Below, piece by piece: positions 1,198 through 56,537 of a stretch of DNA of 64,000 nt; positions within the stretch are counted from its first letter, which is position 1; every line of letters begins with the position of its first letter. The position numbers were made by a program, and so were the translations under genes. The DNA is taken from positions 558,001 to 622,000 of the forward strand of contig CATKHK010000003.1 of the NCBI GenBank assembly GCA_949751835.1, written 5' to 3'. A model generated the notes under the pieces. It was not told the DNA's origin and did not search any database. It saw only the letters and a list, made by a program, of their open reading frames with translations. The DNA is from Blepharisma japonicum (taxonomy: Eukaryota > Ciliophora > Heterotrichea > Heterotrichida > Blepharismidae).

Positions 1198-2048
1198 ATG
1201 AAGGGACGAGAACATTTCACTGGCGATTCACTAGGCCCATATGCTAACCAAGTATTGGGAATTGATAGTGAAGGCTTGGTTTTTTTTTCAACTTCGACTG
1301 ATACTTTACCTACAATTGTGGAGTCAACGATGATGTAAATTCTGACAGTGAAGATTTCATTCCACCTTTTATTGATGGAGACAGAGCTTCAAGTGAAGAG
1401 CTTTTCAAATTATTTTTAAGATTCCATCATGATGATTTTCTACTTGAAGAGATTGATTTGCTACTTGATAATAGTTACTTAGAAATTTTTACTAGTGATG
1501 AAGATACTGAAAGCGACGAGAAAACTGCATCGAACCTAGATGAAAGAATACTTGAAGCGATGGATAAACTAAATGGTGACATCTTAGACAGCAAGGGGGT
1601 TGTGCAAGTTCTTGCAAAATTGATAGACGAAATTACTGAATCAAATATTGTGAATCATTCAAGTGAAAACCTTGAAGGTAATAACTCAAATTTTAATGAT
1701 AGAATGCTACAATAAAATTCATAGCATAAAAATAGAAGCGAACAAGAAGAAAAAAAGGATGAAATTTCAGATCAGAAAGGAGAAATAACTCTAAAAATTT
1801 AGGAAGAATCTGAATATATCCAAACTGTAATGAATCGCAGCTACTATGCAAGGTGTCATATTAATAATACTATGGCAAAAACATTAATTAGAAAGAAAAG
1901 CAGGAGAAAATTACCAGCTACAAATAAAAATAAAATCAAAAAGAATATAAAGAAAACAGGTAAGATGGGATCAAGACAAGCATGGAAAATAAGGGAAAAA
2001 ATTAGTTTCAATCGGGAATTGGTCAGACTAAAAGTCTTATGGCCATAA
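1198..2048 (+). pseudogene. Broken gene of unknown family
   Basis: An ATG at 1198 opens a frame that reaches TAA at 1333. The frame used from about 1327 on carries a 130-residue acidic stretch up to TAA 1713-1715. The same frame then continues past TAG at 1722 and 1800 into a strongly basic tail ending at 2046-2048. The first break could be a 14-nt intron (1335-1348, GT...CAG) or a change in the T-run near 1280. The later in-frame stops suggest a decaying gene, unless only 1198-1715 is real (about 168 residues with the intron). The acidic front and Lys/Arg-rich tail give no family match that I recognise. It lies between two CDPK-like genes but is on the other strand. Confidence 0.35.
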
Positions 2049-4735: not shown

Positions 4736-7700
4736 CTAGCTTCTCTTAGGATAGACTAACTGCTCATCAACAAAGTAATTTTTCATCTTCTTTTGGAGAT
4801 ATTTCCCAACTAATTCTTTTTCTATAGTCTTAAGTGAGTCTTTCGCAAAATCTTTGATTGATGCCATAATGATTCCTTCTTCGCCTTCACATTTTAATGT
4901 CACTAAAAATCTGATGCGATATTTCTTACATGTTTGCAATATATCATCACTATTTAAATTCCCATAATCATAAACAGCTGAAATGTCTAATTTTCAGAGT
5001 TTTAACACTAAATTAACTTTTTCACGATGCAAAGTCTTAAAATCTATTTTCTGTCCATGTGTTTTGCATATGACTATAACAAGTGGACCTTTTATTCAAG
5101 GATCAGTGTTTCCTTGAATAATTATCTTAATTATTTTTTCAACGAAGATACGAGATCCAATGCCTGAAATCTTATTTTGACTGGCTTTTGAAGAAAGTGC
5201 AAAAGAATCAATCAAATTATCATATCTTCCACCTGAAGCAATTGAAATTCTTTCTTTGCTAATCATTTTTCCTTTAGCAACTGATTGAGATGTCGTTACT
5301 TTAAATATAAATCCTGAGTAGCATAAAATTTCATCATGTATTAGACCGAGATCAACTAAGAAATTAACATTATAGTCTTTGCAAGCTTCTTCCAAGTGTT
5401 TTAATTCAATATCTAAAATCCTTACAAATGAATTGTACTTCCAAATTGAATTTTTTTTTATTGTTTCGATAAGTGTTTGCAAGTTTTCTTTTAATTTTAA
5501 ATAATATCCTAATCTTTCAGCGGAGTTTGCAGAGATCCCTATATCAATTAAATCTTTTCTAACTTTTGCCCATTTTCTTCTTGGTATGTCTCGGCATAAT
5601 GATAAAACTTTCATTCTTAAATTTTCTGTTATTTCGCAATGATGTAAAATAATGTCAAGTAGCCTTGTATCATTTACTGTAATTTCTAGCATTGGTAAGC
5701 TATTTCCAAACTGCTCTAAAGCTATTAGAGTAATTTTAAGAAGTTCAGCTTTGTATAAATATTTAAAAGAACTTAACTGTTCAGGATCATAGCAAAAATC
5801 AATACTTGCTTCCAGCGACTCTTCCGGATGCTCGCCTGCTGCCAGAGGCTTGTAGACGCTTGAGATTGTAAATCTTTTAAGAACTCCTTTTACATTGATT
5901 GTATGAAGCAATTTTGCCCATGGGCAAAGCAAATTGCTATTCAGTTGAACTAAAATTCCTGAAGATTCCAAAAACACAGCATTTTTATTGCTTTCAATTT
6001 TAGTTTTTTCCATTTTTCCATCTTTTTGATACCAAAATATTGAAACATTTGTTGAGTATGGCATGAGTAATGGAGTATTTATTTCAATAGCTCCAGCTTT
6101 ATTTAAAACTGTTTGCAACTTATTAATAACGTTGCTTTTAATCATCGCTTCAATTTTCTTATTAAATTTTTTGCCACCTGATAATTCTGATATTCCTTCA
6201 GATATATTGTAAGTAAAATTTTGATGTTTAAGATTTGACTTCTCAAATAAAGCATGAAGTAGCATATTATTTTCTGAGTTTTTAGGATTTAAGCTTATAT
6301 TCATAAAATCATTGAAGGCTTTTGGGTCAATCTTGTGATATAATAAACCACTTTGCAGAAGCTCTTGAGCAGATGGCCTATTGTCAGGAGTTTGCTCGGT
6401 AAGTCATAGGATTATTCTGGGAACCTCTTTGGGAACAGTTTCTAAGAAATCTCCAGGTAAAATTCTATTATCCCTTAATTTCATAATTTCATCTATTCTT
6501 TGCATCATTGATCCAAAAGGTCTTCACATTTCAAAGAAAATTATTCCAAGAGAATACATATCAGTTTTTAAATTGTATTTTCCAGAAATTTTTTGCTCAG
6601 GGGAGCAATAAATTGGTGTGCCAATTCCTGTGCTTAAGCTTTCGCTTATCTGCCTTTTTAACGATGCTTTTTCAGGTTTTAAATTTGTCGTTGTGGCAAG
6701 ACCAAAATCTCCCAACTTAACTTCTCCAAACTCGTTTAAAAATATATTTGATGGCTTTAAGTCTCTATGTATAGTTCCCTTAGAGTGGATGTATACTAAA
6801 CCTTGCAATATTTCTCGTAGCATTTTTCAGATTTCTATTGGAGATGGAATTTTTTGATCGAGAAGAGTACGAAGAGTATCTCCTGCACAATATTCCATTT
6901 GTATATAAAGTTTGCTAACTTCAGGATCAAAGTCATGCAGTACTGATCCAGTCTTATCTGAAGCAATTTCTAAATCTTCACTTAAATCATCTTCACTGCT
7001 GCTTTCTTCTTCGCTACTGCTTTCTTCTTCACTATCATAGCTATCTTGCTCATCAGAGTCAGAGCCGCTACTTTCATCCTCTTCAAATCAAGCATTATGA
7101 TATCTTACAATATTTTGGTGCTGTAATTTAGACAGCAGAACAACTTCTTTCAGTATATATCTAATATGATTCTGCTTTTTTCCTTTTAATTTTATCTTTT
7201 TAATCGCATAGATACTCCCATCAATTTTATTTTTTGCTTTGTAAACACTTCCTCCACCACCTTTACCGATTCTTATTTCTTCTTCAAAGTATCTTCTATA
7301 TTCAAACCCGCTAATAGTGCAAGATAAAGCTGGCTCTGGCAAATCAATTTCTTCTTCATTCTTTCTCTCATTGATTTCAAATTGCACAGAAGGCTCTTTT
7401 TTCTTTCTTTTTTGAAGTTCTCCGTATATTTCTTGCATCAATAAACCAGAATTTTCACGTTTCATTTCTACTTCGATTGGCTCAGGAATTGTTTCTTCCG
7501 GCTCAATATTGTACTTCATAAGTTCTCGCTGTATGAGCTCACACATATCGTAAACCATTGTTTGAGAAACTTTGGATTTTTCTTCAATCAAAGCTTGGAC
7601 TTTTAATTTAATATCATGAATCACATCTTTATGAATGTTGACTGCATTTATTAAGGAAAATATCGGCGGCACATGAGGATAGCCTGGAACATAAGTAATT

Positions 7701-8248
7701 GAAAGGTAAATGCTGCTAAAATTCAAGGCAGAATCTGAAGGATTAGAACGTATAAATATTTTAAAGGAAGCATTGCATAATTCAGTCAGAGGGTTTATAA
7801 CAGTGACATCATCAGAAAAAATAGCTAATAAAGCATCTAATTCTTCTTTTTGTTCTTCGTAAGTGTTTAGAACTTCAGCTGCATCTTCAATAGGTGATAT
7901 TTCACAATTAATTATATTTTCGTATTGATTTTCTTTTTTATTTTCTTCAATCAAGTTTGTAAGCTTAATTTCTTCATTAATTATATGCTGAATATCTTTT
8001 GGCTCTTTTGTTTCAATTAAAACAGGAGAATGAACTTCTTCTTCATGTAATGGGTGCACTTCTTCGATTGGTTTTAATTTTTCAGGCAATTTTTGAAGGA
8101 TTTTTTTGCTTCTTTTTCTCTTCCCTTGTCTTTTTGGAGGTTGAGTTTGAATTATTTGAGGGGTTTTAGGCTGGGTTTTATTAAATCATAAATAACCAAA
8201 AAATATTCCTAATAGAAAGGATGAGAGTATAATTAGTAGTCCTTCCAT
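4736..8248 (-). CDS. GCN2: GCN2-type eIF2-alpha kinase with N-terminal membrane segment
   Basis: This is one uninterrupted frame of 1170 residues when TGA is read as Trp. The ATG at 8248 is followed by a hydrophobic helix (about residues 4-20) and a basic stretch, so a signal anchor is predicted. An RWD domain follows at about 130-245, then a kinase at about 315-640. The kinase has a glycine loop GKGGGGSVYKA, YAIKK lysine, HRDLKPSN and GDFGLA, all intact, and the GTPIYCSPEQ segment typical of eIF2-alpha kinases. A very acidic Ser/Glu/Asp insert sits at about 387-430, as in the kinase insert of GCN2. From about 660 to the C-terminus is a histidyl-tRNA synthetase-like domain with SGGRYDNLI and a final anticodon-binding-like part. 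The family senses uncharged tRNA and phosphorylates eIF2-alpha. Cytosolic GCN2 has no membrane helix, so the N-terminus is the odd feature. Confidence 0.9.
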
Positions 8249-9525: not shown

Positions 9526-10878
9526 TTAAATCAGATTTTCTTCGATTTGTTCTTCTGTGTGTTCTTCTGTAATAGGTAAAGGCATAGATTTTGGCATCAT
9601 ATATGTTATTTTTAAGCTGACTAACAGCGTTCCCGCCATTATTCAGAATGTACCTTGATACCCAACATACTAAATAAATTTTACAGGCCATATAAAAAGT
9701 TCAACACCCCATAAAGAAATTGCTAGCCCAGTGAACCCTAAAAAGGACCAAGAAAGGATTCAATCGTCATGGGGATAAATTATTTTGCAGGCGACTATTA
9801 TTATCAAATAAGTGCTGCTACCAAAAATGAAGCCGAGAGTTGACCAAATAAAATAAAGAATTTTCACACTAGCTATATAATAGATAGTGCCACATATAAA
9901 CACCTGAGATATGATTGCAACATAAGAAATTGTTTTCCAGTCATATTTATCAATTGCAAACCCCCATAAAAGTCTGGCAACCCCTCCAACCAGAAATCCA
10001 GTCGAGCCTAAATAGGATAAAAAATGATCATCCTTGATTTTTGTATGTCCAAAATTTTTGTATTCTGAGACAAAATATGCATAAAATGCAAAACTAAAAA
10101 AACAGTTTAAACTTAAAAGCCAAAAATTTTTTTGCTTTGCAGCATCTTTGAGAGTTAGTGTCCTTTGATCAATTTGGGTCTCATGGGCGCCTCTTTCAGA
10201 TCTAATTACATAAACCCCTAATAAAGATGACACAAGATATATTAAAGACATCCACCTAATTGCAGATGGAACATTGTCATAAACGGAAGATCCGAAATAT
10301 TGAGATTCATCATCCTTATTTTCAGGGAAAGTAATAAACGGAGATTCATTGGATGGATTGATCAAGCTTGTCCATATAAGGCCAAATATAGTTGGTCCCA
10401 AACTATAGGCCGAAATTCCGAAGCTTGATACAAGTCCAATATTTTTTGGAAAAAATTCCCAGCAGGCCCAAATAATAGGCATATTCAACATTCCACTGAT
10501 TATTCCTGCATAGGTCCCATAGAGTATGCAAAATAAATAATAATTTGGGGCAAAAGAACTTGCAAATAAAAAGAGTGATCCGGAACTTGTTCCAACAGTA
10601 GCCGCAATTTTGCAGCCAAACTTTATGCATATATAGCTGGCAATGACTGAATAATTATTACTGAACGCGATTGACTCAATGACGTATGAAAGAGTATAAG
10701 CTAGATACATATCTGACTCAGACACATTGTGGTCCTTTGCATGGTAATAAGAAGCGAAATATAAACTAACAGCGCCTCACAAATTTATTGTCCCAGATAC
10801 CTAATTATGGCTCACTAAGTTAACTATAAAGCATCCAACCAGTGCGAGCAGGCTTTTGGTCTTTTTGGAAAATGGCAT
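9526..10878 (-). CDS. MFS transporter, monocarboxylate/oxalate-formate antiporter type
   Basis: The protein has 440 residues after removing two 15-nt introns, at 10801-10815 (GTGAG...TAG) and 9670-9684. TGA is used for Trp before and after the introns. It has about twelve hydrophobic segments in two halves split by a polar loop near the middle (around residues 200-240). Typical MFS signals are visible: a Gly-rich helix near LYGTYAGIISGM and, in the second half, GGVARLLWGFAIDKY, matching the conserved loop motif G-x3-D-R/K. The C-terminal tail is acidic and cytosolic. The substrate cannot be told from sequence; the family imports or exchanges small organic anions. The start at 10878 gives a short basic N-terminus before helix 1. 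Confidence 0.8.
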
Positions 10879-27013: not shown

Positions 27014-28364
27014 ATGATAGATTGAACTTTCATAGGCCTAACATCAGTTGTCGTAATTGCTACATCTGCGCTTATTAACATTGCTCCATATCTTCCTCTA
27101 ATTACAGAGTCAAAAAATATTTCAAGCACAGTGACTGGAATCATATTTTCCTCACATCCTTTTGTGGCATGCATTTTCTTGCCTATTTATGGAAGTATGA
27201 TGGCTCGAATAGGCAGAAAAAAGCTCTTATTGAGTTCTATTCTTTTAGAAGTTATTAGTTTGGTTATATTATCTACCTTTCCTTATTTTGACTCAGAATC
27301 CTTTGCTGTTATGGCTATTTTTTCACGAGGAATTCATGGAATCGGATCAGCTGGAGTATCATCAACAATATTAGCACTGATGTCTACAACATATAAAGAT
27401 ACATTAGCCAATAAACTAGGAAATTACTATATCATCGTAAATGTGAGTCTTATTTTTGCTCCGTTGTTGGGATCTTTATTTAATTTAATAGGTGGTTTTA
27501 CAGCTGTTTATTGGGGTTTTACATTTTTGTTAGTTTGTGTAACACTTTTTGCAGCTGTTGTAATTCCTGAAGACAAACCTTATAGACCTCCTGAAATAAA
27601 GGTTTCATGAAGTAGCATTTTAAAACTCAGGACGCCTAATTTAGATTTTTGGTGCGTTTTCTTTTGCTTTTTTGGTTATGCATCAATTGAAACATCACTA
27701 ATTCAGCTTTGGAATACTTTTAAAATTCTAAAATGCATATATATTTTATTGACTAGATATATTTTATTGAAGTTTCCTATAAAAAATACGCTCTTTTAAT
27801 ACAGAAGTAAGCCTATATTTATCAAATAAGCTTGCAATTAATCAGAGCATTATTCCGATATTTTTCTCAATTTTCCCTCTTTTTTGGAGTTTAGGTTCTT
27901 TTGCAGGAGGAAAATTCTATGGTAAAATGAAAAATAAATTGCTACTTTTAGCTTATCTACTTTTTGCGGCATTCGCTCTAGAGTTTATAGGGCCTACATC
28001 ATTGATCCCAATTAATTCAAGTGTAATCTGTGTTATAATTTCATTAGCAGTTATAGGATTTGGTGTAGGTGGCGTAATGGTGGTCGCTCTACCTGATATG
28101 ATTGAAGATACCATGATAAACGCTCCTTTTCTACAAAGAGACCATGCTTCAGATAGGATATCTGCTTGGCTAGACCTTGCAATGTGAATTGGAAGAATGG
28201 CTGGCCCAGCAGCTGCAGGCTATCTAAAAGATCAAATAGGATTTCGAGACACACAAGCAACAATCGGCTGCTTAATAATTTTGTATGCGATACTTTTTAA
28301 AATATGCAGCAAAGATTACTCAAAGATCACTCAATATAATGAGCCACTTATTCAAAAATATTAA
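27014..28364 (+). CDS. MFS transporter interrupted by an 85-bp insert
   Basis: ATG 27014 starts helix 1 (MIDWTFIGLTSVVVIA, with TGA as Trp). The first half carries the MFS loop motif GSMMARIGRKKLL. At about 27713-27802 the frame is broken by an 85-bp AT-rich stretch between two AATAC copies. Taking out one repeat unit joins the halves exactly (ETSLIQLWN to TEVSLYLSN), giving a 421-residue protein. The second half has a matching loop (GGKFYGKMKNKLL), a TGA Trp and the rest of the helices, ending at TAA 28362-28364. The family resembles SLC18-type or drug/amine transporters. Either the insert is removed in most copies of this DNA, or the gene is broken. Confidence 0.7.
27718..27802. other. 85-bp insert, possible retained internal eliminated sequence
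   Basis: The stretch lies inside the MFS gene between direct repeats AATAC (27713-27717 and 27798-27802), so it has TA at both junctions. It is about 18 percent G+C, well below the coding flanks. It has stops in all three plus frames and holds two copies of the 14-mer atatattttattga separated by ctag. Its length (85, 1 modulo 3) shifts the frame; removal restores it exactly. It has no GT...AG ends, unlike every other intron here. I do not see strong terminal inverted repeats. Confidence 0.5.
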
Positions 28365-28454: not shown

Positions 28455-29037
28455 ATGGAAAATACTCTCGATATTCAAGAATATTCGCCAATCATAAAAA
28501 GCCAAATTTGGCATTATGAAATAGGAAATACTCATGGATTTTGGTTTTCAAGCACAGGGAAACCAAGAGTAATCATTGGTCCTCACTGTAACAAACAAAT
28601 TAGGGATTTATTGTTTAATTTCCGTTTTATTATTTACAATTATTTTTGGAACATTACTGCTTTTTAGCTCTTATTTTGTCCCAAGATTTATATCTATAAT
28701 AAGCTGAGTTGCTTATTTTACTTGTATAACAAGCTGGCTCATATGTGGAATAAAAAATCCAGGCCTAGAACTTGAAATGCTTACTAATCAACAAGAAATA
28801 ATCAAATATTTTAATGATAAGAAATTTTGCAGAGTTTGTGAAGTGTTGAGAGAGCCTGGGACGCTTCATTGCGTTGAATGTGATGTCTGTATCAAAGAAA
28901 AGCAAGGTCATTCCTTAATAGCAGGAAAATGTATTGGTAAAGAAATAAAAGTTCCTTATTATATATTGGTGGGCTCGGGTATTTTTGTTACATCATATAT
29001 TGGATTTCTTGCAGTATTTTCTATTTTTATTCATTAA
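28455..29037 (+). CDS. DHHC-family protein without the catalytic DHHC
   Basis: The protein has 188 residues after removing a 16-nt intron at 28588-28603 (GT...TAG). The join produces IIGPHWIYCLISVLLF, matching the GPDWPY segment before helix 1 of palmitoyltransferases. One TGA reads Trp. The cysteine-rich domain is recognisable (KFCRVCEVLREPGTLHCVEC), but where DHHCPWxxNCIG is expected it reads QGHSLIAGKCIG, so the catalytic Cys is replaced by Ser and the Asp and first His are lost. A third and fourth membrane segment follow and the protein ends early, without a TTxE motif. It is likely an inactive relative with some other role, or a decaying gene with an intact frame. Confidence 0.72.
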
Positions 29038-36728: not shown

Positions 36729-39653
36729 ATGGAACCCGGCAATTTGTCTGCTGACCCAAGCAGCTCAGAATCTGAGAGTTCAAATTCTCGTGAAGAAACA
36801 ATCAATGAGCACCGCGAATTCGCTAAGAAGCTTAAGACTGAGCAATCCAAATTCAATAAAAACCACAAGACTCTGCAAGAGAAGCTTAATCATCTCCTTC
36901 AGCAAGCAGAACATTATGCAAGTTTTCTCTTTTATGGAGGTGCCACAAACAATAAAACACCTGCTAAAAGTCCTGTGAAAAAGCGTCTTAAACGTGGCAA
37001 AGACGAAGATGAACTTATCCACGAAATGAAGCATGAGCATCGATTTAACAGACTTACAGCTCAGCCCTCAATAATGAAAAATGGAGTCTTGAGAGACTAT
37101 CAAATTGAAGGAGTTAACTGACTCTACAGCTTGTATAGAGCTGGAATCAACGGGATTTTGGCAGATGAAATGGGCTTAGGCAAGACAATTCAGTGTATTT
37201 CTTTTCTTGCATATTTGAGGGAGCAGGAAGGAATTATAGGCCCACATTTAATTGTAGTACCGAAATCAACATTAGGGAATTGGATTAAAGAATTCGAAAA
37301 ATGATGCCCAATTATCAGAACAGTTAAATTGGTGGCCGCAAAACCATATAGAGAAGAAATTCTTAAGAATGAGTTAATTCCAGGAAAATTTGATGTTTGT
37401 GTCACTTCTTATGAAGGAATCACCATTTGTCAGAATTATCTCAAAAAATATAAATGGAGGTTCCTTATCATCGATGAAGCTCACAAAATTAAAAATGACG
37501 AGTCCAATTTATCACAACTAATTAGACGCCTACATAGTGATAATAGACTCTTAATTACAGGAACTCCATTACAAAATAATTTACACGAATTATGAAGTCT
37601 ATTAAATTTTTTGCTTCCGGACTTGTTTAGTTCGGCCTCAGATTTTGATGAATGATTCAGATTGGGAGCTGAAGAAGGTCTCACTGAAGAAGAAATCGAA
37701 GATAAAAACGTAAAAATGGTCCAGCAGCTTCACAAAATTTTAAAGCCCTTTATATTGAGGAGGACTAAACTTGAAGTTGAAAAAGGAATCCCACCTAAAC
37801 GAGAAATTCTTGTTACAATTGGCATGACAGCCATGCAAAGAGATTTATATAAAAAAATCCTAACAAATGAGCTCTGTAAACTGGACAATAAAAGCCACTA
37901 CTTAAATATCGTAATGCAGCTTAGAAAAGTATGTAATCACCCTTTCCTATTCCCTGCAATGGATGACGAAAACGCCGCTGAAGAAAACGTTATTTTGACA
38001 TCCGGCAAAATGAAGCTGCTCGACAAGCTTTTGCCAAAGCTCAAAGAAGGCGGTTCACAAGTCTTGATTTTTTCACAAATGACTACTATGATGGACATCT
38101 TAGAAGACTATTGTGTCTTTAGAGAGTTTAAATTCTGCAGATTAGACGGAACAACAGATATTTATGAGCGAGAAAAAATGATAGCAAAATTCAATAAGCC
38201 TAATTCAAAATACTTCATATTTTTATTATCCACAAGGGCTGGTGGGCTTGGAATTAACTTAGCATGTGCTGATACTGTGATTATTTACGACTCTGATTGG
38301 AACCCTCAGATGGATTTACAAGCTATGGATCGTGCTCATAGAATAGGGCAAACTAAGCAAGTTAATGTGTATAGATTGGTGACAAAAGATACATTGGAAG
38401 AAAGAATTATAGAAAGACAGTGTCTGAGACTTAAGCTTGACTCTTTAATTATTCAGCAAGGCAGATTAGCACCTAGACATAAGCCTTTAGATAAAGAAGA
38501 GCTCCAAGAAATGCTTCACTATGGAGCTGATGAAATTTTTAACACTATTGAAGATAATTCAGACATCACTGAAGAAGAGCTTGCCCTTATTTTGCAAAGA
38601 GGTGAGCAAAAAGTGCAAAGGATTGAGCAAGAACTTGACAATCAGCTTGAGAAGAAAAAGATGAATTTAATTGATTTTGAAAGCAAAATTGACATGTGGA
38701 ATTTTGAAAGCGTTGACTACTCCAAAAAAAGAAGAGAAGACTCACGAGAAATTTTACAAAAAGCAATCCATGATAAGATCTTAGAAGAGTTCAAAGAAAG
38801 AAGAGAAAGAAAACTCCAGCAAAACTACAACACAGACTCCAAATTTAATTTCCAAAATTCTGGGTCTTCTAAGCCTAAAGAATTCAAACCCGCCCCTGAT
38901 TTCAGATTTTTCGATAATAGACCAAGGCTAATAGAACTTCAAAAAAAAGAATTCAATAAAGAAATAGCTGACGAAGAAAAAGCAGAACTTGAACAAATGC
39001 TAATGACAGGGTTTGACTGGAATCGAAAAGAATACAACGCTTTCTTAAAAGGCTGCGAACTCTATGGCAAAGATGAATATCAGCTGATTTCTGAAGTCAT
39101 GGGAACTAAGACTCCAGAACAAGTGAAAGCTTATGCAGAAGTGTTTTGGAGCAGACTTGATGAGTTGGCTGACAAAGAAAGAATTTTGAAATCTTTTGAA
39201 AAACGAGAAAGCCTTGTAGAAAAACACAAGCTGTCTCAAAAATTGATTGACCAAAAATTTTTGCAATATAAGAATCCATGGAGAGAGTTGACGTTTGAAT
39301 CGAATACTTCTCATAAATCGAGGATTTTTACACATGATAATGATAGATTGTTGGTGTGCATGGCTAAAACAGTTGGATATGGTAACTGGGAAGCATTGAA
39401 GATAAAAATTAGAAAAAGTCCATTATTGAGGTTTGACTATATGCTTAGGTCTAGAACTGCTGGAGAACTACAAAGGAGAATTGATAGCTTGATTAGAATA
39501 TTAGAAAAAGAAGGAGAAGATAGACCTAAACCAGAAGGAAATTCAGGAAAAAGAAAAAGAGAAGCAGCAGCCACAAATGTAGAACCTGAGCCAAGAAAAG
39601 CACTCAAGGTGATTGATAATTCTGCAATTACAAGCTTGCTTAATAGCGTTTAA
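36729..39653 (+). CDS. ISWI: ISWI chromatin-remodelling ATPase
   Basis: The protein has 974 residues in one frame, with four in-frame TGA at 37119, 37302, 37593 and 37653. Each falls on a Trp conserved in [33 protein letters not shown] and DFDEWF. The Snf2 ATPase is complete: [11 protein letters not shown] (Walker A), [28 protein letters not shown] and DRAHRIGQ. The C-terminal part carries the HAND-SANT-SLIDE region ([19 protein letters not shown], then [14 protein letters not shown]). It slides nucleosomes in the nucleus, normally with larger partners. The length is close to the usual 1000-1050. This gene is the best internal proof of UGA as Trp. Confidence 0.96.
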
Positions 39654-43519: not shown

Positions 43520-45538
43520 ATGGAAGGAAGGGTGAAAGAAATTTCAAAGCTGCTTGAGTCTGCTATGAGACTTTCTTGCACAATCAAAAAAGGCATCTTA
43601 TTTAGCAAAACTTCAGCATTAGTTAAGTTCTGCACAGAAGAACCCTATCAGAGCCAAGGCCGAGATTTCTTTAAACTATATGGCTTCAACTCACTTTTTT
43701 CTTTAACCCAAGCCAACTCTGAATATTATTCCCCATCAAGGAATTATAAAATCATAATCAGAAGTGAAAAAGAAGAAGAGCAATATTTTGAACTTTGGGA
43801 CCAATAAAGATTAAGACTTGTAAAAGAGCTCAAAAAAGTTCATTCAATAATTATAGAAAATCCTGTTTTCGGAGAAATTTCTTGGAGTAGTGATGAAAGA
43901 TACATTTCTTATATCGCTGAAGCTTCAAAGAAAAAGTCTGGGTCATTTTGGAGTGGAGAAGAAAATATTGGCAATTCAAATCTCTATAAAGAAAACTTTG
44001 GAGAAGGGCTTTCAAATGTTACTGATCCTAAACTATTTATTTTTGACATACAAGAAAATTCAATTTCAGAAATTTCTTTACCAGCAGACATATATCCGGC
44101 ACAATCAGTATTCAGACCTAATTCGCAAGATTTAGTTATTGTTGGATTCAAAAAGACTCCATACAAAGTTGGCATGACTGCAATGCTTAACAGAGAATCC
44201 AATTTATATCAAATTAACATCACTACTAAAGAAGCAACTAAAATCGATATCCAAAATACTTTGCAAGGGATCCTTTATCCTAGATTTAATCCAAGTGGCA
44301 ATTTACTCGCATATTATGGAGTTCCAAAAGGAAAAAGATCCCATGTGATGTGCTTGTCAATTAATTTGCTTGACTGGGAAAATAAAGTTCCTCGTTGTAT
44401 TGTAGATGTTGTTGAAGACTATAATGATCACTATAATGGAATTTATGGCTTTCAGGATACGCTTTCAACACTAAGCTGGCTTAATGATGAAAAACTAATA
44501 TTTGAAACTAATCATAAAGGAAGCGATTGCATATTTACAGCTGATTTGAATGGAAACGTAAATGAATTCACTTATGATCTTCAAAAGCCATATCATTTAT
44601 CCTTACTCGATGTGCAGCAAGACACTGCTTTAATTAGAGCTGCAAATGGCTTGAATTTTCATAGAATTCTTATCGCCAATCATACTAATGGTACCTGGTC
44701 AAATAGTTTGATTGACAATCTAACCCCAACACCTAGGACTCCAGAAGCAGAAAAAATAATTGAAGCCTTAAATAGTACCACTATGACTACAATCCAACAT
44801 CAAAATACAGATATGTCGAGCTTTTTATATCATACTTCTCCAGGTAACCCATTATTTATAATCCCTCATAGTGGTCCACATTCTTCAGGGGATGTTGATT
44901 TTTCATGGTCATTAGGTGTAAGATTGGCACTGGGCTATAATGTTTTGATGGCTAATTTTAGGGGAGGCACTGGATATGGCAATAAAAATTTAGAAGCTTT
45001 GCTCAAAAATGTTGGAACGATGGATATTGAAGACTGTTTGGAATCTTTAGAGCTTGCAAAGCAATATGTAGATACAAACTATGTAATATCATTTGGTGGA
45101 AGCCATGGAGGATTTTTAAGTGCACACTTAGCATCAACTGGAGTACCCAAACTAAGCATTGTCGTAAATGGCGTTTATGATATTTCTTCAATGAGTCTAG
45201 TAACTGATATAACAGATTGGTGCTATGCTGAAGTATTTAATGAAGATCCAGTTTTCCCTCCTAGTGAAGCTCATATTGCAGGGATGTATAGAGCTTCACC
45301 TGTAGCTAGAGCTGGAAATATTAACATACCAGTTCTTATTGTGGCAGGAGGTTCTGATATGCGTGTTCCACCTCATTTATCTATGGAACTCTATAGAGTC
45401 TTGAAAGGAAGAGGAATTGACGTTAAGTTACTTTGGTATGAGAAGGACGGACATGGTCTCTTAAGCAAATCTACAGCTTACGATTTTATAGCTAACCACT
45501 TTGTTTGGGTTGAAGAAAAGATGAAAGGATCAGCATAA
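43520..45538 (+). pseudogene. S9 acylaminoacyl-peptidase-like, copy A, one in-frame stop
   Basis: The frame runs 672 codons with a single TAA at 43805-43807. Copy C has CAA there (WDQQRLRL) and copy B CAT. No GT...AG stretch covers it. Everything else is intact: an N-terminal beta-propeller half, then the alpha/beta hydrolase with FRGGTGYGNKN, nucleophile GGSHGG, acid in GGSDMRVPP and base in DGHGLL. The family removes acylated N-terminal residues or cleaves short peptides. Either this copy is freshly inactivated, or translation restarts downstream, or the stop is read through. An internal start at 44174 would lack half the propeller. It is a direct repeat of copy B and inverted relative to copy C. 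Confidence 0.75.
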
Positions 45539-46213: not shown

Positions 46214-48226
46214 ATGGAAGGAAGAGTGGGAGAAATTTCAAAACTGCTTGAATCTGCTATGAGACTTTCTTGCACTGTCAAAAAAGGTATCTTATTTAAT
46301 AAAACCTCAGCGCTAATTAAGTTCTGCACAGATGAACCGTATCAGAGTCAAGGCCGAGATTTCTTCAAGCTATACGGCTTTAACTCACTTCTTCCTTTAA
46401 CTCAAGCGAACTCTGAATATTATTCTCCTTCAAGGAATTATAAAATCATTATCAAAGGTGAAAAAGAAGATGAACAATATTTTGAAATTTGGGATCAGCA
46501 TAGATTAAGACTTGTAAAAGAGCTCAAAAAAGTTCATTCAACAATTATAGAAAATCCTGTTTTTGGAGAAATTTCTTGGAGCAGCGATGAGAGATATATT
46601 ACTTACATCGCTGAAGCTTCAAAGAAAAAATCTGGGTCGTTTTGGAGTGGAGAAGAAAATATTGGCAATACAAATCTCTATAAAGAAAACTTCGGGGAAT
46701 TGCTTTTTAATGTTACTGATCCTAAGCTATTTATATTTGATATAAAAGAAAATTCAATTTCAGAAATTCCTTTGCCAGCAGATATATATCCAGCGCAATC
46801 AATATTCAGACCTAATTCGTATGATTTAGTTATTGTTGGATTCAAAAAGACCCCATACAAAGTAGGTATGACTGCAATGCTTAACAGAGAATCCAATTTA
46901 TATCAAATTAGCATCGCTACTAAAGAAGTAATTAAAATCGATACCCAAAATACTTTTCAAGGGATTGCTATTCCTAGATTTAATCCAAGCGGCAATTTAC
47001 TCGCATATTATGGAGTTCCGAAAGGAAAAAGATCCCATGTTACGTGTTTATCAATTAATTTGCTTGACTGGGAAAATAAAGCTCCCCGCTGCCTTGTGGA
47101 TGTGGTTGAAGACTGCAATGATCATTTTAATGGGATTTATGGATTTTACGATATACTTTCAACACTAAGCTGGCTTAATGATGCAAAATTAATATTTGAA
47201 ACCCAGCATAAAGGAAGCAATTGTATATTCACGGCTGATTTAAATGGAAATGTCAATGAATTCACTTATGATCTTCAAAAGCCATATCATTTATCATTAC
47301 TCGATGTGCAGCAAGACACTGCTTTAATTAGAGCTGCAAATGGCTTGAATTTTCATAGAATTCTTATCGCCAATCATACTAATGGTACCTGGTCAAATAG
47401 TTTGATTGACAATCTAACCCCAACACCTAGGACTCCAGAAGAAGAAAAAATAATTGAAGCTTTAAGTAGCGCCACTATGACTACAATCCAACATCAAAAT
47501 ACAGAAATTTCAAGCGTTTTATATCATACTTCTCCAGGCAATCCATTATTTATTATCCCTCATGGTGGTCCACATAATATAGGAGTTGTAGATTTTACAT
47601 GGCAATTGGGTGTCAGATTAGCATTGGGCTATAATGTTTTGGTGAATAATTTTAGGGGAAGCACTGGATATGGCAATAGAATTTTAGAAGCTTTACTAGG
47701 AAATGCAGGAACTGTGGATGTTGAAGACTGCTTGGAGGCTTTAGAACTTGCAAAGCAATATGTAGATACAAGCTATGTTATATCATATGGTCGAAGTTAT
47801 GGGGGATTTTTAAGTGCACACTTAGCATCAACTGGAGTCCCCAAACTAAGTATTGTCGTAAATGGTGTTACTGATATTTCTTCAATGAGTTTAACAACAG
47901 ATATAACAGATTGATGTTTTGCTGAAGTGTTTAACGAAGATCCAGTTTTCCCTCCTAGCGAGGCTCATATTTCAGGAATGTATAGAGCTTCACCTATAGC
48001 TAGAGCTGGAAATATTAACATACCAGTTCTAATTGTGACAGGAGGCTTCGATAAACGTGTTCCACCTCATTCATCTATGGAACTCTATAGAGTATTAAAA
48101 GGTAGAGGAGTTGATGTTAAGTTGTTTTGGTATGACAAGGATGGGCATGGCCTCTTTGGAAAAGCAACAACATATGATTATACAGCTAATCATTTAGTTT
48201 GGATTGAAGAAAAAATCAAAAGATAG
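46214..48226 (+). CDS. S9 acylaminoacyl-peptidase-like, copy B
   Basis: The protein has 670 residues in a single frame; TGA at 47912-47914 reads Trp where copies A and C have TGG. The layout is N-terminal propeller (about 1-390) and C-terminal Peptidase_S9 hydrolase. The nucleophile elbow is GRSYGG, different from GGSHGG in copies A and C. The acid loop reads GGFDKRVPP instead of GGSD; the base is in DGHGLF. All three triad residues remain, so it is likely active, perhaps with changed specificity. Bases 47255-47441 are almost identical to 44561-44747 of copy A, while the flanks differ more. No signal peptide is present, so it is probably cytosolic. Confidence 0.88.
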
Positions 48227-48486: not shown

Positions 48487-50505
48487 TTATGATGATCCTT
48501 TCATCTTTTCTTCAACCCAAATAAACTGGTTAGCTATAAAGTCGTAAGCCGTAGATTTGCTTAAGAGACCATGTCCATCATTATCATACCAAAGTAACTT
48601 AACGTCAACTCCTCTTCCTTTCAAGACTCTATAGAGCTCCATAGATGAATGAGGTGGAACACGTTTATCGGAGCCTCCTGTCACAATTAGAACTGGTATG
48701 TTAATATTTCCAGCTCTAGCTATAGGTGAAGCTCTATACATTCCTGCAATATGAGCTTCACTAGGAGGGAAAGCTGGATCTTCGTTAAACACTTCAGCAT
48801 AACACCAATCTGTTATATCAGTCACTAAACTCATTGAAGAAATATCAGTAACACCATTTACGACAATACTTAGTTTGGGCACTCCAGTTGATGCTAAGTG
48901 TGCGCTTAAAAATCCTCCATGACTTCCTCCAAATGATATCACATAGTTTGTATCTACATAATGTTTAGCAAGCTCTATAGACTCTAAACAATCTTCAACA
49001 TCCATCGTTCCAACATTTTTGAGCAAAGCTTCTAAATTTTTACTGCCATACCCAGTACTTCCCCTAAAATTAGGGATCAAAACATTATAGCCCAAAGCCA
49101 ATCTTACACCTAATGACCATGTAAAATCTACAACCCCTGAAGAATGTGGACCACCATGGGGGATTATAAATAATGGGTTACCTGGTGAAGTATGATATAA
49201 AAAGCTTGACATTTCTGTATTTTGATGTTGGATTGTAGTCATAGTGGTACTATTTAAGGCCTCAATTATTTTTTCTTCTTCTGGAGTTGTAGGTCTTGGG
49301 GTTAGATTGTCAATCAAAGTATTTGACCAGGTACCATTAGTGTGATTGGCGATAATAATTCTGTGAAAATTCAAGCCATTTGCAGCTCTAATTAAAGCAG
49401 TGTCTTGCTGCACATCGAGTAAGGATAAATGATATGGCTTTTGAAGATCATAAGTGAATTCATTGACGTTTCCATTTAAATCAGCTGTAAATATGCAATC
49501 GCTTCCTTTATGATGGGTCTCAAATATTAATTTTTCATCATTAAGTCAGCTTAGCGTTGAAAGTGAATCGTGAAAACCATAAATTCCATTATAGTGATCA
49601 TTATAGTCTTCAACCACATCGACAAGACAGCGTGGAACTTTATTTTCCCAGTCAAGCAAATTAATTGACAAGCACATCATATGAGATCTTTTTCCTTTTG
49701 GAACTCCATAATATGCGAGTAAATTGCCACTTGGATTAAATCTAGGAAAAACAATGCCTTGCAAAGTATTTTGGGTATCAATTTTAGTTACTTCTTTAGT
49801 AGTGAGATTAATTTGATATAAATTGGATTCTCTGTTAAGCATTGCAGCCAGTCCAACTTTGTATGGGGTCTTTTTTAATCCAACTATAACTAAATCATAT
49901 GAATTTGGTCTAAATTTTGATTGTGCTGGATATATGTCTGCTGGTAAAGGAATTTCTGATATTGAATTCTCTTGTATGTCAAAAATAAATAGCTTAGGAT
50001 CAGTAACATTTACAAGCCCTTCTCCGAAGTTTTCTTTATAGAGATTTGAATTGCCAATATTTTCTTCTCCGCTCCAAAACGACGCAGATTTTTTCTTCGA
50101 AGCTTCGGCGATGTAAGAAATATACCTTTCATCACTGCTCCAAGAAATTTCTCCGAAAACAGGATTTTCTATAATTGTTGAATGAACTTTTTTGAGCTCT
50201 TTTACAAGTCTTAATCTTTGCTGGTCCCAAAGTTCAAAATATTGCTCCTCTTCTTTTTCACCTCTGATCAAAATTTTATGATTCCTTGAGGGGGAATAGT
50301 ATTCAGAGTTAGCCTGGGTTAAAGGAAGAAGTGAGTTGAAGCCATATAGCTTAAAGAAATCTCTGCCTTGGCTCTGATAGGGTTCTTCTGTGCAATACTT
50401 AACTAAAGCTGAGGTTTTGCTAAATAAGAAGCCTTTTTTGATGGTGCAAGAAAGTCTCATAGCAGATTCAAGCAGTTTTGAAATCTCTTTCACTCTTCCT
50501 TCCAT
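48487..50505 (-). CDS. S9 acylaminoacyl-peptidase-like, copy C
   Basis: The protein has 672 residues in a single frame; TGA at 49546-49548 reads Trp (STLSWLND). It has the same architecture as copies A and B, with nucleophile GGSHGG, acid in GGSDKRVPP and base in DGHGLL, so it should be an active serine peptidase of family S9, subfamily of acylaminoacyl-peptidase/prolyl oligopeptidase type. It is closer to copy A than to copy B over the hydrolase half. It is inverted relative to both, with 260 bases between its stop and the stop of copy B. Confidence 0.9.
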
Positions 50506-55627: not shown

Positions 55628-56537
55628 ATGAGCAATCTAGATGAGGAAGTGCTTGTTTATTATATCACCTTACCTTTCTGTGTTTTTAGTATAATAGGAA
55701 GCCTCTTCATAGTTACTATATATCTCCTCCTTAAGGAGATTCGTGTATTCACCTTTAGATTGATTTTTTACCTAGCCTTAATGGATCTTCTCTTTGCGTC
55801 CTGTAACACTTAACACAGCTTTTGCAATCCCATGGTTCATAAACGAATACTACTGCTACATTCAAGCCTTATTAATGAATTTCGCAGGGTTATCTGTCAT
55901 TTTGTGAACTGCAGCCATTGCATATACATTAAATAAATCAGTTGTATATGAAAAAGAAAATCTGGAGTCCTATGAGCCTTATTACTATTTTATTGCCTTT
56001 GGCATTCCTGCACTTCTTGAAGGCCTCCCTTTCATTACTGGAAGCTATGGTAAAGCTCAAGGATGGTGCTGAATCTCTCTTGGAGACAGTAATGATATTA
56101 AGCAATATACTGAGCCATGGTTTTACGGGCAGATGTGAAGGCTGCTATGCTACTATTTGCCTCTATGGCTGACCATGGGCTACAACTCATGGGTGTATTA
56201 TAGGATTTCCAAAAAAATTGTGATAGTGCTGGATAATTCCAAACAAGAAGAAAAAATGAAAAGGATGCTATTAATCAGGCTGAAGCTTTATCCAATTATT
56301 TTGGTGATCTGCCAAACTCCAGTTTCCATGCTGAGAATTGCATATTTCATTGGCATGGAAGATGATGGAATGCTGTGACTTTCAGCAATTGCTGGTATTT
56401 TTGTTATATTGAATGGAATTTTAAACGCGCTTGTATATGGTCTTACAGATACTGTAAAAAATGCGCTGAGGAGATATCGTGAAAAGTACAGCACCAATTT
56501 TTTTGAAAGCAGTTCTCTTATTGAAGGAACTATTTAA
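55628..56537 (+). CDS. Seven-helix receptor, cAMP-receptor/GCR1 type
   Basis: The protein has 297 residues after removing a 16-nt intron at 55803-55818 (GT...CAG); several TGA read as Trp. Seven hydrophobic segments are visible. Features of the cAMP receptor-like (Dicty_CAR/GCR1) group include helix 2 with LALMDLLFA, a Trp-rich extracellular loop (KAQGWCWISLGD) and a helix-6 region with ICQTPVSMLRIAYF. Helix 7 ends with ILNALVYGLTD, and a basic tail (RRYREKYS) follows. The family couples to G proteins in slime moulds; in ciliates ligands are unknown. The start gives a short extracellular N-terminus. Confidence 0.82.

Follow-up and report, generated by a model that had tools for sequence, protein, structure and literature searches.

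The question raised by this locus is what an 85-bp stretch is doing within the coding sequence of an MFS (SLC18-like) transporter gene, whose reading frame it breaks. An initial annotation of the window, by which we mean the whole 64-kb stretch of DNA analysed here, had read it as a retained internal eliminated sequence (IES). That the gene is interrupted by a real insert is an observation. As to its nature, the best explanation we considered, with about an even chance of being right, is that the insert would be an IES-type germline segment left in a somatic copy of the gene. Sequence alone cannot separate a retained IES from an ordinary insertion, and the two readings are weighed below.

In its sequence the window resembles somatic DNA of Blepharisma, with long reading frames that stay open only if TGA is taken as a tryptophan codon, introns of 15/16 nt and gene models over 78% of its length. 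Open reading frames (ORFs) of at least 180 codons, with TGA counted as a sense codon, number 40, overlap little and cover 47 kb. They contain 69 TGA and 139 TGG codons, a count that is partly circular given how the ORFs were defined; independent support comes from the TGA at 28185-28187 in the transporter gene, which aligns with a Trp of SLC18B1. A purpose-written gene finder that allowed only 15/16-nt GT...AG introns produced the 45 models covering that 78% and listed 17 such introns as needed, 12 of them beginning GTAA. Three of the 17 (at 27557, 39747 and 55803) each lie inside a single open ORF and are not needed, and among the 14 that remain the intron at 39648 is doubtful, falling at the very end of its gene. 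In Blepharisma stoltei, UGA is reported to encode Trp and introns to be predominantly 15 and 16 bp (PMC9942806), and the somatic genome is described as having a GC content of 33.5%, with genes occupying 77% of the assembly (PMC9942856). One further stretch of the window, at 1198-1715 (+), has a frame break resolvable by a 17-nt GT...AG intron (1252-1268, found by eye), beyond the usual 15/16 nt.

The idea that the window derives from a germline assembly was rejected: about 62 IESs would be expected per 64 kb (from 39,799 per 41 Mb), against one candidate found. This survey is weak, in that the finder split the MFS gene itself into two complete-looking models and so could hide others, and it is blind to in-frame and intergenic inserts. 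A Pfam scan of 20 further ORFs gave a match in 11, and no domain was split between neighbouring models, bar a receptor-like model (55875-56537), closely preceded by a modelled intron, whose match starts part-way into the profile. The Blepharisma telomere unit CCCTAACA, sought in that phase or its complement, does not occur within the window; most MAC windows would lack one.

Several other genes of the window deserve mention. An ISWI-type remodeller with SNF2, Helicase_C and SLIDE domains lies at 36729-39653 (+); an ISWI homologue is reported to be needed for correct IES excision in Paramecium (PMC9942856). A GCN2-like gene at 4736-8248 (-) carries RWD, kinase and histidyl-tRNA synthetase-like domains. 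Three close acylaminoacyl-peptidase-like S9 peptidase paralogues occupy 43520-45538 (+), 46214-48226 (+) and 48487-50505 (-); the first, with 92% and 88% DNA identity to the other two, is interrupted by an in-frame stop at 43805-43807, whereas the others are open there.

The transporter gene extends from its ATG at 27014 to a TAA at 28362-28364, and its two parts lie on either side of the insert (Table 1). The upstream part matches MFS_1 positions 4-225 (1.6e-27; the query was extended to 27796 and the match ended at residue 230, about position 27703), and the downstream part, scanned alone, matches positions 227-316 (3.5e-06, 26.6 bits, the family cut-off being 33.4). The insert is thus bordered by profile position 225 on one side and 227 on the other. 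Median coding scores of the two flanks are alike (3.15 upstream and 3.03 downstream), and across the 421 codons there is no further stop or frame break. General decay around the gene was rejected as an explanation, the frame break of the next gene (28455-29037, +) being resolved by a 16-nt intron at 28588; this small gene has a Cys-rich, DHHC-like stretch by eye, and a 100-aa piece of it had no Pfam match. A second MFS ORF (9673-10800, -; MFS_1 50.9 bits) is uninterrupted but too distant from the broken gene for an alignment across the insertion point (blastp 20.8 bits, E 0.067). The upstream part found no confirmed locus in viral_contigs, nor did the 85-bp-removed version match a plasmid, ciliates being expected in neither collection, and no title retrieved from the open-licence PMC literature concerned this locus.

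Table 1 Features of the interrupted transporter gene, in window coordinates.
Feature	Coordinates	Strand	Remark
Upstream part of MFS (SLC18-like) transporter gene, ATG to insertion point	27014..27712	+	MFS_1 match; open with TGA=Trp
Insert, 85 bp, left-most placement	27713..27797	+	Removal gives a 421-aa ORF
Left AATAC copy	27713..27717	+	Chance level
Left copy of the alternative 7-bp direct repeat CTTTTAA (76-bp unit)	27717..27723	+	
Direct repeat of 14 bp within the insert (27739-27752 and 27757-27770, separated by 4 bp)	27739..27770	+	
Possible 40-nt GT...AG intron	27772..27811	+	Removal also reopens the frame; MFS_1 122.9 bits
Third AATAC copy, within the insert, 72 bp from the first	27785..27789	+	Removal up to this copy leaves an in-frame stop
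Right copy of the alternative 7-bp direct repeat CTTTTAA (76-bp unit)	27793..27799	+	
Right AATAC copy	27798..27802	+	Chance level
Downstream part of MFS gene, to its TAA	27798..28364	+	MFS_1 match; coding score like the upstream part

Omission of the 85 bp restores the frame to the base, as the initial annotation had claimed for deletion of one repeat unit, and every placement of the insert within the AATAC repeat gives an identical product. We compared four versions of the gene with the MFS_1 profile. The version with 85 bp out scored best (129.8 bits), followed by those with 76 bp out (129.3 bits), with a 40-nt GT-AG segment removed (122.9 bits) and with read-through of the insert and one base dropped (112.3 bits); the half-bit gap between the first two decides nothing. 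Comparison with PDB entries (SLC18B1 and VMAT2) covered the 85-bp-removed version only. Its alignment with human SLC18B1 (E 5.9e-06) is gapless from 7 residues before the junction to more than 30 after it, with small gaps of 1 and 3 residues farther upstream, and in the better-scoring match to VMAT2 there are gaps of 1 and 2 residues close to the junction. Together these alignments indicate that 28 extra residues would be atypical of the family, whereas small length differences are tolerated.

The composition of the insert sets it apart from its flanks. The claim that an AT-rich stretch splits the gene held up: its GC content is 17.6%, compared with 25.9% for the lowest flanking 85-mer within the gene, and only 1 of 1,610 coding 85-mers sampled from the window is as low. 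An every-position scan of the gene models, however, found four other low-GC places, two of which reach 17.6% (one in the GCN2-like gene, window starts 7895-7911), so low GC alone is no proof of foreign origin. Stops are present in every plus frame with TGA read as Trp, again as annotated. In the upstream gene frame, which stays open for 28 codons into the insert, the first and only one is at 27797; the other two frames are stopped at 27729 and 27780 and at 27721 and 27754. Scored in the gene frame, the codons of the insert reach −4.4. The median over 1,190 long-ORF windows is 4.8, and one of these windows is as low as the insert; one window of the MFS gene itself falls to −4.6. The insert also contains a 14-bp direct repeat, matched by 1 of 5,000 shuffles and by 5 of 2,131 tiled 90-mers of the window. 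An RNA gene inside the insert was rejected, the window having no Rfam match at gathering scores.

The flanking repeat is compatible with an IES but is no argument for one. The initial annotation had pointed to AATAC copies flanking the insert with TA in each, and the coordinates and the 85-bp start-to-start spacing stand; a third copy lies within the insert, however, a longer CTTTTAA repeat is available, and the AATAC pair is at the level of chance. Removal of the 76-bp CTTTTAA unit also restores the frame, which leaves the insert boundary ambiguous. The 90-nt segment was dinucleotide-shuffled 5,000 times with its flanks fixed, and 25.5% of the shuffles contained a repeat of at least 5 bp that includes TA and restores the frame (25.0% in a run of 2,000 shuffles). 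Such a repeat of at least 7 bp was seen in 3.9%, and two or more of at least 5 bp, one of them at least 7 bp, in 1.7%. Frame aside, 46 TA-containing repeats of at least 5 bp spaced 65-115 bp apart occur in the MFS gene, where the window as a whole has 45.0 for the same length; for those of at least 7 bp the figures are 13 and 6.4. Terminal inverted repeats (TIRs) scored in five registers, without a chance control, gave 3, 4, 6, 7 and 10 matches of 20 positions, none clear; in the best register (27720/27799) the first six positions all match.

The retained-IES reading may be set out as follows. The 85-bp (or 76-bp) stretch would be an IES-type germline insertion in the SLC18-like gene that was not removed from the assembled somatic copy. 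During normal somatic development an excisase, for which a domesticated PiggyBac, BPgm, is the published candidate in Blepharisma, would make its cut at the TA of the flanking repeat, and precise rejoining would yield the 421-aa transporter. For the uncut form to be the one assembled, excision of the segment would be confined to a share of the somatic copies, or the segment would no longer be excisable. The species, limitation of the insert to the germline elsewhere, action of an excisase on this insert, and partial as opposed to complete retention are all points that we infer. If excision did take place in only a fraction of somatic copies, its efficiency might determine how many working copies of the transporter gene a macronucleus has and so provide a heritable, adjustable somatic gene dosage in a heterotrich, an extension of the argument that we regard as quite unlikely.

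We prefer a retained IES mainly on base rates, and further because of the length of the insert, the precise fit of the restored protein and the absence of lesions in the flanks. For B. stoltei, 39,799 reconstructed IESs are reported, about 70% of them intragenic; 10,778 lie in the 65-115 bp range, and about three quarters of all are TA-bound (PMC9942856). An insert of 85 or 76 bp is within this range of short IESs, in which lengths of 65, 72 and 110 bp are named and the periodicity has a 10-11 bp step (PMC9942856). Given tens of thousands of intragenic IESs, beside which de novo 85-bp events are presumably rare, an IES that escaped excision would be the likelier source of the insert. A Blepharisma-like organism, the size and intragenic site of the insert, the TA in the flanking repeat and exact restoration of a conserved protein agree with the initial annotation's case for an IES. 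That case is weakened by a repeat and TA that are expected by chance in such AT-rich DNA, by the longer CTTTTAA repeat and the 40-nt GT-AG removal that likewise reopen the frame, by GC far below the IES mean, by the lack of a clear TIR and by low published retention. Among these objections the lack of a clear TIR is a weak one, since TIRs in published Blepharisma IESs are common but heterogeneous and not universal, with no single TIR shared. Retention is given as 0.02 or less in MAC-enriched DNA (PMC9942856), and an IES in a consensus assembly must accordingly be exceptional. A caution comes from Loxodes, where the calls of an IES-detection pipeline included indels that would fit heterozygous alleles (PMC11441545), and it applies to this insert too; B. 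stoltei ATCC 30299 is reported to be virtually homozygous (PMC9942806).

The main rival is an ordinary insertion that is never eliminated, either filler DNA at a repaired break or the remnant of a tiny element, so that the gene would be a pseudogene of recent origin in both soma and germline. We consider this somewhat unlikely. It would be in keeping with the chance-level repeat and the lack of a clear TIR, and the GC of the insert lies within the 5-95% range found for intergenic 85-mers of this window. The in-frame stop in the first S9 peptidase paralogue, moreover, indicates that ordinary gene breakage occurs in this window, which counts against an IES. Set against an ordinary insertion are the presumed rarity of such events noted above, the absence of any other lesion in 421 codons, and the lack of a source copy within the 64-kb window, where the best non-self match to the insert scored 28.3 bits compared with a median of 27.4 for 150 random 90-mers. 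As a short DNA transposon or MITE, the insert likewise shows no clear TIR (best 10/20, no chance control) and no second copy within the window.

Two further explanations would leave the insert wholly or partly coding, and we judge each of them improbable. In one, a 40-nt GT-AG intron in a longer coding insert would be removed at the RNA level, so that the gene is intact and its product 15 residues longer. The initial annotation had stated that intron ends are lacking; this is correct in that no 85-bp placement within the repeat starts with GT, but the 40-nt removal does reopen the frame, leaving 436 aa that still match MFS_1. Its score is nevertheless 6.9 bits under that of the 85-bp version, and the candidate begins GTTT in a window where 12 of 17 introns begin GTAA. 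Introns of the window are 15/16 nt (the finder being limited to these, with the one 17-nt candidate found by eye), and lengths of 15 and 16 bp predominate among published introns (PMC9942806). Tiny introns do not mend the gene: no set of up to four of its seven 14-17-nt GT...AG candidates opens the frame.

In the other, the insert would encode 28 extra codons, with the frame broken by an indel of 1 nt or by misassembly of an A or T run. The upstream frame is indeed open through the insert, and it overlaps the downstream frame at 27783-27796, beside A and T runs, such that one 1-nt shift anywhere between these positions would join the two. Reading the insert as coding, however, costs 17.5 bits against MFS_1 and brings in a codon score at or below all but 1 of the 1,190 windows, albeit above that of one window of the MFS gene itself. 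Its GC is also under that of any flank window of the gene, though two coding places elsewhere in the window equal it. Expression of a longer protein by programmed +1 ribosomal frameshifting at TTT-TAA (27794-27799) is hardly credible: a +1 step at this stop enters exactly the downstream frame, but it requires a coding insert, which codon and profile scores disfavour, and frameshifting of this kind is known from Euplotes but is not known from heterotrichs.

If the insert is not an IES, the locus is an ordinary broken gene. Should it prove to be an IES in somatic DNA, it would be a new case of a known kind, retained IESs being already known, and it would represent failed or partial genome editing in a coding gene of an early-branching ciliate for which published retention is otherwise very low. 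Such a case could help to ask what renders an IES refractory to the excisase.

Among known systems, the tiny 15/16-nt spliceosomal introns of Blepharisma (PMC9942806) resemble the insert in being non-coding stretches that break a frame, but the insert is 85 bp and has no GT...AG ends. Another parallel is offered by small, exon-mapping, incompletely excised IESs in Paramecium (PMC7606892), since a coding-sequence IES present in part of the somatic copies would give such a picture, though the genus is another one. The short, periodic, TA-bound intragenic IESs described in B. stoltei (PMC9942856) differ from it in that it sits in a seemingly somatic assembly and in its GC content, 17.6% compared with a published IES mean of 33.3%. 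Like them, the insert interrupts a gene, measures between 65 and 115 bp and, at chance level, has a TA in a flanking direct repeat; it is not repeated in the window, and its precise removal would restore the frame.
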